NCBI GenBank assembly: GCA_029055345.1
Contig: JAIDDJ010000023.1
Coordinates: 29,353 to 93,352 of the forward strand
Origin: Muribaculaceae bacterium
GTDB lineage: Bacteria; Bacteroidota; Bacteroidia; Bacteroidales; Muribaculaceae
DNA: 64,000 nt
Reading direction: 5' to 3'
Shown in pieces: positions 30,305 through 32,356 of the stretch; within the stretch, counting starts at the first letter, position 1; each line of letters begins with the position of its first letter. The notes beneath the pieces were generated by a model that was given only the letters and a program-made list of their open reading frames with translations, did not search any database and was not told where the DNA came from. A program made the position numbers and the translations under genes.

Positions 30305-31119
30305 CAAGTAAGGAAATATCCAGACTGATTTCAGAGACGAAAACCTACAATCTGCATTCCCACACTGAATATTGCGATGGTCATGCGCCGATGGCCTCAA
30401 TTGTCGAGGCTGCTGCAAAAGAGGGATTCCGGATATGGGGTATAACTCCCCATTCCCCTATTCCTATCGAGTCGGGATGCAACATGCTTCGCACGGATGT
30501 CGGCAGATATATTTCACGTGTCGGTGAGCTTCAGGATAAATATGGTGATGAACTGCGTCTGCTGACGGGGATGGAAGTGGACTTTCTCGGCCGTGACTTC
30601 GGGCCACATATCGATTACTTTCAGACACTTCCTTTGGACTACCGGATTGGGTCGGTGCATTTCGTGCCTAATCAGGATGGGATTTTAATAGATTGTGATG
30701 GAAGCGCCGAAAGGTTCAGAAAGAACCTTAAAGCCGGATATGCAGATGACTTGCGTTATGTGGTAGAGAAATATTTCGAACAGGTCCTGACCATGCAGGA
30801 ACTTGGAGGGTTTGAGATTCTGGGGCACTTCGATAAAATCATAGGTAATGCATGCACCGTTGACCCGAACTTGGAAAATGAAGGATGGTACGAATCTCTT
30901 ATTAAAGAAGTAATAAGGGGAGCTGCCGATTCCGGGGTAATTGTTGAGATAAACACGAAAGCGATTGAAAGCAGGGGGCGCTTTTATCCGTCAGAAATTT
31001 GGTGGCCAATGTTGAAAGAGTGCGGAGTAAAAATTGCAGTGAATTCAGATTGTCATTCTCCCGAACTGACAAATCTCGGACGAAATGAAGCATTAGAAAA
31101 ATTTAGTCTCCTACATTAA
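30301..31119 (+). CDS. PHP-domain phosphoesterase (histidinol-phosphatase-like)
   Basis: Polymerase-and-histidinol-phosphatase fold metal enzyme of 272 residues. Metal ligands are visible in YNLHSHTEYCDGHAP (HxH near residue 20), GITPHSPIP, MEVDF and the final NSDCHSP. Most like HisJ/HisK-type histidinol-phosphatases, which make histidinol from histidinol phosphate. But it lies with cstA, not his genes, so the substrate may differ. ATGA overlap with cstA. Confidence 0.88.
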   Translation: MTSKEISRLISETKTYNLHSHTEYCDGHAPMASIVEAAAKEGFRIWGITPHSPIPIESGCNMLRTDVGRYISRVGELQDKYGDELRLLTGMEVDFLGRDFGPHIDYFQTLPLDYRIGSVHFVPNQDGILIDCDGSAERFRKNLKAGYADDLRYVVEKYFEQVLTMQELGGFEILGHFDKIIGNACTVDPNLENEGWYESLIKEVIRGAADSGVIVEINTKAIESRGRFYPSEIWWPMLKECGVKIAVNSDCHSPELTNLGRNEALEKFSLLH

Positions 31120-31143
31120 ATTATGAGAACGTAGGAGACTAAA
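31102..31143 (+). terminator. 13-bp stem-loop spanning the PHP gene stop codon
   Basis: TTTAGTCTCCTAC (31102-31114) and GTAGGAGACTAAA (31131-31143) are perfect reverse complements with a 16-base loop containing the TAA stop. No U-run follows on the plus strand, so it may be an end-protecting or processing hairpin. Confidence 0.55.
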
Positions 31144-31399
31144 TAAGAAATTGCCGGGAAATAAGTTACCGTAAAATCAAATCCGGCTTATAATCTTTGC
31201 AAAATGTAGCTCTTTCCTTTCAGCTATCAGCTTTAACTCAATGTGGCTACCGGGTGCAAAATTACATCGGGTTCTCCATTGCTGAAATACCCATAGTTAG
31301 TGAATTTTCATATCAACGTCACTATTATTTTTAGAGAAAGTCGGGAAATAGTCAAAAGTAGGTATTGGGGACATGGATAATAATGAGTAATTTTGCTGC
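31144..31399. other. intergenic region upstream of the hemerythrin-LuxR gene
   Basis: About 255 bp with no ORF of note and no repeat. At its right end, ATTG-N20-TAATTTTG (31364-31395) matches the promoter consensus at 11 of 12 positions, but abuts the start codon. Confidence 0.5.
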
Positions 31400-32356
31400 A
31401 TGATTGACCGACAAAACAGATATTTATCGCGAAATACTCTCCGAGAGCTTATACGCGACAATAATATGCTGCTGATGGTGCTCAGCCGTTTCAATATACC
31501 TTTCGGATTCGGAGATTCGACAGTAGCTCAGGTCTGCGCCACGCATAATGTAGACTGCGATACATTTCTTGCTGTATGCAATCTTCTGAGCACAGGAGAG
31601 GCAAATGTGGAAAAGGTGCGTCTGGATTCACTCATCAATTATCTGAAGAAAGCTCACACATCGTTTCTGGAAGTAACTTTGCCCCGAATAAGAGAGCATC
31701 TTATCGAGGCCATCAGCTATTCAAAAGCAGACGAGGTCTCTTATCTATTGATAAAGTTTTTTGACGATTATGTTGAAGAAGTCAAAAGGCATATGGACCA
31801 TGAAAACGAAGTTATATTCAGTTATGCCGAGAGTCTTATGAGCGGAAATTCGGATTCAATATGCAATATATCCGATTTCAATGCCAATCATGGTCATATG
31901 GCTTCCAAACTTCAGGAGCTGAAAGACATCTTTATCTATCATTACAACCATGCTGAAAATGCTCGCTTGAGCGTAACTTTATTCGATATCATAATGTGCG
32001 AGAAAGACATGATGGCCCATTTCGAAGTTGAGAAAAGATTGTTTATTCCGGCGGTAGAGCTGCTTGAAAGGAAGAAAGGTAAAGAGACTTTAATAGAAAC
32101 AGATGACGCTGCGGAATCAGACTTATCGCCGGTCGAATTGTTAGGGGATAGAGAAAAAGAGATATTGAGCTGGGTAGCGAAAGGAAAATCCAATAAGGAA
32201 ATAGCATCAGAATTATTTATTTCAGTTCATACAGTCACCACTCACAGAAGGAATATCTGTGCCAAATTGGATATTCATTCCACAGCCGGACTGACCATAT
32301 TCGCCATCATCCACAACTTGGTAAAGATAGAAGAAATCGGCTCCACCCTGAAGTGA
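31400..32356 (+). CDS. RIC/hemerythrin-like LuxR-family transcriptional regulator
   Basis: 318 residues. Residues about 10-65 resemble the ScdA_N/DUF542 domain of di-iron RIC repair proteins, but with NIPFGFGDS where the cysteine motif would be. Residues 75-225 form a helical bundle with hemerythrin-type His/Glu ligands (EHL about 99, HMDHENE 131-137, NHGH 163-166, HYNHAE 181-186, AHFEVE 206-211). Residues 246-310 are a GerE/LuxR HTH (LGDREKEILSWVAKGKSNKE, HTVTTHRRNICAKL). Likely a DNA-binding sensor using a di-iron site, perhaps for oxygen, NO or redox stress. That role is inference. Confidence 0.85.
   Translation: MIDRQNRYLSRNTLRELIRDNNMLLMVLSRFNIPFGFGDSTVAQVCATHNVDCDTFLAVCNLLSTGEANVEKVRLDSLINYLKKAHTSFLEVTLPRIREHLIEAISYSKADEVSYLLIKFFDDYVEEVKRHMDHENEVIFSYAESLMSGNSDSICNISDFNANHGHMASKLQELKDIFIYHYNHAENARLSVTLFDIIMCEKDMMAHFEVEKRLFIPAVELLERKKGKETLIETDDAAESDLSPVELLGDREKEILSWVAKGKSNKEIASELFISVHTVTTHRRNICAKLDIHSTAGLTIFAIIHNLVKIEEIGSTLK

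Follow-up and report, generated by a model that had tools for sequence, protein, structure and literature searches.

What does a protein sense when it joins a di-iron-type domain directly to a DNA-binding domain, and which genes might it control? This question is raised by a gene of a Muribaculaceae bacterium, located at positions 31400-32356 (forward strand) of the 64-kb stretch of DNA analysed here (the window). It encodes a 318-residue protein that fuses a hemerythrin/RIC-like region to a GerE regulator. A preliminary description suggested that it is a cytosolic di-iron sensor that directly controls transcription, possibly of oxidative or nitrosative stress genes such as the neighbouring bcp. 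The likeliest binding sites are located before its own gene and before iron-import genes; therefore, the protein is probably an iron-shortage switch, not an oxidative-stress switch. Iron sensing in Bacteroidota is poorly known. This kind of regulator has been described in its two-gene form (the CdhR type), together with one published fusion.

Domain architecture and fold

The fused protein contains four regions, all encoded on the forward strand. The helical N-terminal head (residues ~14-65; 31439-31594) resembles ScdA_N, with FGFGD in place of the RIC CC motif and a conserved C46. It is followed by a hemerythrin/RIC-like four-helix bundle (residues 75-233; 31622-32098), a flexible linker of low pLDDT that holds no receiver domain (residues 234-247; 32099-32140), and a GerE/LuxR-type HTH (residues 248-302; 32141-32305). 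In the Pfam search, residues 248-302 scored 70 bits against GerE (cut-off 23.5), and residues 79-218 scored 31.7 bits against Hemerythrin PF01814 (gathering score 25.3). The NCBIfam RIC model TIGR03652 aligned with residues 21-217, with a score of 45.9 bits that is far under its cut-off of 204.7 and places the protein outside the RIC/YtfE family. Pfam ScdA_N reached just 12 bits, in one split homologue; in the PDB, a profile of the N-terminal region (A3) matched ScdA of S. aureus (2e-10) as well as YtfE of E. coli (2e-7).

The AlphaFold2 model, built from an input alignment of 65 sequences, has a pLDDT of 90.5. Its bundle helices span residues 75-105, 112-147, 165-181, and 187-233, followed by the floppy linker and the HTH. 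The Foldseek search with this model returned YtfE first and aligned the ScdA chain of S. aureus with a TM of 0.74; LiaR/VraR DNA-binding domains were also among the top matches. The Pfam, PDB profile, and Foldseek results thus agree on a RIC/hemerythrin-like domain and a GerE HTH in one chain, and they support the earlier view of a cytosolic di-iron-type domain fused to an HTH. The PF01814 score and the four-helix bundle (model and Foldseek) place the protein in the hemerythrin-like superfamily. It is not a two-component response regulator, since a receiver domain with a phospho-acceptor Asp is absent from the fused protein.

Predicted metal ligands

Six RIC-type ligands are predicted: H86 in helix 1 (31655-31657), H131 and E135 as an HxxxE motif in helix 2 (31790-31804), H164 in helix 3 (31889-31891), and H207 and E211 as a second HxxxE motif in helix 4 (32018-32032), all on the forward strand. 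They are essentially invariant among the non-redundant homologues, both fused (n = 118) and split into two genes (n = 36). H164 is kept in 116 of the 118 fused proteins, and the other ligands are complete save in one truncated sequence. The preliminary description had named lack of conservation in orthologues as grounds for refutation, which these homologues do not provide. Five of the residues (H131, E135, H164, H207, and E211) align exactly with the metal ligands of YtfE and ScdA; H86 is displaced by one residue from YtfE H84 in the HMM alignment. Every modelled bundle helix carries or abuts predicted ligands. The expected convergence of the residues on a single site is thus supported indirectly, by their placement on all four helices and by the alignment, and the bundle presumably binds a di-metal (di-iron) centre.

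The six His/Glu ligands are shared with the RIC/YtfE family; the Cys-Cys motif of the ScdA_N-like head is not, being absent in all homologues, which have FGFGD instead. The earlier remark that the head lacks its cysteine therefore holds for the RIC Cys-Cys motif but not for C46 (31535-31537). This residue is kept in 116/117 fused and 36/36 split homologues, a conservation equal to that of the predicted ligands.

Fused and two-gene forms

Roughly half of the relatives from the same genus encode the two halves in adjacent genes on one strand. The hemerythrin protein and the GerE regulator form one unit throughout, fused in 118 loci and adjacent on the same strand in 36. The two-gene form is the CdhR-type pair of Bacteroidales, in which a hemerythrin gene accompanies a gene for a GerE regulator whose receiver is degenerate. 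The downstream gene of the pair encodes an N-terminal receiver-like domain without the acidic residues normally found there. At the phospho-acceptor position, Asp is mostly replaced by Asn or another residue (mostly Asn in close relatives), and the best Pfam receiver score among five proteins scanned was 16.4 bits against a cut-off of 30.2. The pseudo-receiver is absent from all fused proteins, in which the linker has 9-37 residues.

On phylogenetic trees of the hemerythrin region, seven switches of form are required, and at least four of these are forced by well-supported branches. A single fused clade was rejected (AU p = 9e-48, delta lnL 175). The window protein belongs to a large Muribaculaceae fused clade, and the fusions of Prevotella, of the Alistipes type, and of one more Muribaculaceae locus (L024) are placed outside it; L024 is less certain because it is located at a contig end. 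The split form is basal in the tree. Therefore, fusion with loss of the pseudo-receiver appears to have happened several times, a new result of this tree analysis. Such recurrence suggests that the two-gene systems, too, receive their input through the hemerythrin protein and not through phosphorylation. One genome has two fused paralogues facing each other about 4.3 kb apart (G016 contig C6, L060).

Predicted operator motif and promoter spacing

An unsupervised search for palindromic motifs in 15 intergenic regions from the regulator loci of relatives, none from the window genome, yielded ATACCTAATATTAGGTAT with a log-likelihood of 113.7, compared with 30-48 in eight shuffled sets. The motif from relatives, ATACCYANNNNTRRGTAT, has the 7-2-7 inverted-repeat form of NarL-family operators, as expected of a GerE domain. 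Its two highest-scoring sites in all 64 kb of the window are both in the promoter of this gene, within 280 bp upstream. The top site, predicted operator 1 (ATAGTCAAAAGTAGGTAT; 31348-31365; 17.9 bits), is centred exactly 31 bp ahead of the -7 element TAATTTTG of the regulator (31388-31395, forward strand). The second, predicted operator 2 (ATACCCATAGTTAGTGAA; 31287-31304; 12.6 bits), is exactly 31 bp from a reverse-strand copy of TAATTTTG (31257-31264), which belongs to a divergent promoter that is not followed by an ORF. The Bacteroidetes -7 box has the consensus TAnnTTTG (PMC7366714).

The predicted transcription start is within 1-2 nt of the ATG (31388-31400), and the regulator mRNA may be (nearly) leaderless; the -7 box is 23-48 nt from the start codon in most homologues. 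The ORF-less divergent unit at operator 2 (31105-31264, reverse strand) ends near a hairpin at ~31105-31143. It may be the relic of a lost porin-operon promoter or encode an iron-responsive small RNA. Similar ORF-less divergent promoters with hairpins were observed at L014 and L069.

In held-out promoters of fused genes (n = 98), a site of at least 12 bits was found in 53%, compared with 0.4% of shuffles, and 38% had no site of 8 bits or more. For the split genes (n = 35), sites above 12 bits were found in 29%, compared with 1.3% of shuffles. The site centre is exactly 31 bp from the start of the -7 box in 41 of 65 held-out site-bearing promoters, with a background of 0.29% per position; the binomial p of 6e-87 overstates independence because the sequences are related. 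The same spacing recurs at porin promoters, including a 10.1-bit site before the unlinked porin-imelysin-DHOR-ResB operon of the window genome (contig C7). At feoAB promoters, the -7 boxes are 31, 46-47, 56-58, or 68-69 bp off, distances that mostly differ by about one turn of the helix. The 31-bp spacing puts the site centre at about -41/-42 from the start site, the usual place of an activator that touches the polymerase, and activation by the regulator is therefore inferred. The motif, its fixed 31-bp spacing in this activator-like position, and the association of its sites with iron genes are new in this work.

Predicted targets

The regulon was sought by pattern search of genomes. In the 2.03-Mb genome of the window, ATACYYANNNNTRRGTAT has a single perfect match; it lies 108 bp upstream of a gene that encodes a FeoA-FeoB fusion. 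Three sites match with a single mismatch, and only the regulator's own site among them exceeds 10 bits by PWM. Weak matches with one or two mismatches inside genes (e.g., C20:21931, formiminotransferase-like) were treated as chance. The 61 same-genus genomes contain 48 perfect sites, compared with 17 for a reversed control pattern. Among 47 exact sites inspected, 18 are before feoAB, 7 before the regulator or porin, and 4-5 before TonB-type receptors; single cases are before PepSY, rubredoxin-like, FMN-binding, and DUF4491-like genes, and about 13 are intragenic and chance-like. Gene names other than feoAB, porin, and regulator were assigned by sequence inspection. A feoAB site of at least 12 bits was found in 16 of 23 regulator-bearing genomes, compared with 1.5% of shuffles.

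The gene neighbourhoods are also related to iron. The porin-imelysin-DHOR(-ResB) operon adjoins the regulator in about 20 of 80 loci, in several clades and mostly divergently, and at L030 its porin gene is likewise divergent from a split pair. At L092, L093, and L101, feoAB is the divergent neighbour; together, feoAB or the porin operon takes this position in more than 20 loci. Imelysin-like proteins have been implicated in iron uptake (PMC3143127), and the porin-imelysin-DHOR-ResB/CcsA operon is a probable iron or heme-iron acquisition unit. In the window genome it is located at L168 4309-10466 (G000 contig C7); elsewhere it is conserved and often divergent from the regulator.

Two further gene families were observed near such sites. 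A lipoprotein family of ~210-280 residues (SCSDxx...YDGYTVAxxxYF), possibly heme/iron-binding, is encoded upstream of the regulator at L031, L041, L055, and L078, divergent from the +31-spaced site. A DUF4491-like small membrane protein is encoded directly before the regulator at L068 (5588-5992) and behind an exact operator at L200 (1051-1389).

FeoAB has been reported to be Fur-regulated in B. fragilis (PMC6460266), and Fur-family genes are present in 20 of 21 relatives searched. Therefore, the regulator would be one layer of control, and feoAB is likely co-regulated by Fur.

Proposed role and alternative explanations

Taken from sequence are the architecture, the ligand conservation, the operator motif, the fixed promoter spacing, and the association with iron genes. 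The explanation that we consider probable is that this CdhR-type protein of Muribaculaceae works as a one-component di-iron activator of iron-acquisition genes. A di-metal (di-iron) site would be formed in the RIC/hemerythrin-like bundle, and the occupancy or oxidation state of this site would determine how the GerE domain at the C-terminus dimerizes or binds DNA. When iron is scarce, the protein would bind NarL-type 7-2-7 inverted repeats (TACCYAN-NN-NTRRGTA) whose centres lie at about -41/-42 relative to the start site. From there it would activate feoAB, the porin-imelysin-DHOR-ResB operon, TonB receptor genes, and the regulator gene itself. The two-gene unit PG1236-37 (CdhR) of P. gingivalis is induced ~7-fold without iron, and BT0519-20 of B. 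thetaiotaomicron 16- to 20-fold on iron depletion (PMC10434189); activation of hmu genes has also been ascribed to CdhR (PMC10101095). A protein that is active when iron-free is suggested by these induction data of relatives and by the site position. The signal itself might be iron occupancy, redox state, O2, or another metal.

If the bundle sensed O2, H2O2, or NO instead of iron, the protein would tune iron uptake to oxidants. This is a serious candidate, albeit one we tend to doubt: hemerythrin domains are reactive towards O2, NO/H2O2 stress has been linked with RIC proteins (PMC9268430), a rubredoxin/rubrerythrin-like gene is behind one exact site (L202), and cdhR is down in microaerophilic conditions (PMC10101095); however, the homologous pairs respond strongly to iron depletion (PMC10434189), and the predicted targets are iron transporters, with no site at bcp. 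The narrower proposal, a stress regulator of bcp and its neighbours, is very improbable despite the RIC-like domain and the position of bcp 1.4 kb downstream. The scan of the 64-kb window found no operator-like site near bcp, bcp, like NhaA, is encoded on the opposite strand, and bcp is not a conserved neighbour in the 80 loci. The set bcp/NhaA/PHP/CstA was rejected as an operon or target group, being without sites and not conserved beside homologues; of the four, only CstA recurs, in one locus. The stress targets of the preliminary description thus give way to a predicted regulon of iron acquisition.

It is also conceivable, though unlikely, that the motif is bound by a different regulator, either a GerE paralogue or a member of the Fur family, and that this gene is merely one of its targets. 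Relatives encode several further GerE proteins, and the 97% complete genome G017 has a 21.9-bit feoAB site, yet no regulator was detected in its assembly; a similar picture, more or less pronounced, was seen in three genomes of lower completeness. Nevertheless, the dyad differs from a Fur box and shows the NarL-family arrangement that an HTH of this type should recognize. The motif is found repeatedly in front of the regulator gene itself, in different families and for both the fused and the split form, and it also adjoins feoAB or the porin gene in divergent loci. A catalytic or iron-donating bundle for RIC-like Fe-S repair, with an incidental HTH, is hardly credible: YtfE and ScdA are the closest structural neighbours, but the RIC CC motif is missing in all homologues, and the bundle is repeatedly fused to, or paired with, a GerE regulator.

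For the iron-responsive activator, the predicted operator, the fixed promoter distance, and the target list (feoAB, imelysin operon, TonB receptors, and self) make the proposal directly testable. More broadly, the chances seem about even that a di-iron hemerythrin-type sensor acting as a direct DNA-binding activator is a main, widely conserved iron-uptake switch in Bacteroidales. It would then parallel FBXL5/BRUTUS as a one-component system of bacteria, in which repeated fusion stripped an obsolete receiver.

Comparison with known systems

The literature searched contained no operator, regulon, or sensing mechanism for the CdhR-type unit. The architecture is not new, since the unit is fused in P. 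intermedia according to a figure legend (PMC10434189). By published description (PMC10434189, PMC10101095), the CdhR system (PG1236-PG1237) and BT0519-0520 also place a hemerythrin protein beside a GerE regulator, in an iron-limitation stimulon. However, they consist of two genes with a degenerate receiver, whereas the window protein is one chain without a receiver. PIN17_RS10465 of Prevotella intermedia, likewise compared by published description (PMC10434189), is a hemerythrin-GerE fusion; the Prevotella fusions are in a different clade, and it is therefore probably a separate fusion event. The RIC proteins YtfE and ScdA share the head and the four-helix bundle with H / HxxxE / H / HxxxE ligands, but the window protein lacks the CC motif, has an extra HTH, and scores far under the RIC cut-off. 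The NarL/FixJ (GerE) regulators, such as LiaR/VraR, have the HTH and the 7-2-7 inverted-repeat operator in common with it, although its input is a hemerythrin-like bundle instead of a phosphorylated receiver. In the hemerythrin E3 ligases FBXL5/BRUTUS, a hemerythrin-like di-iron domain senses iron and controls iron uptake (PMC12022348). This likeness is an analogy only: FBXL5/BRUTUS act by ubiquitination, whereas the window protein would act by predicted direct DNA binding, in a bacterium.
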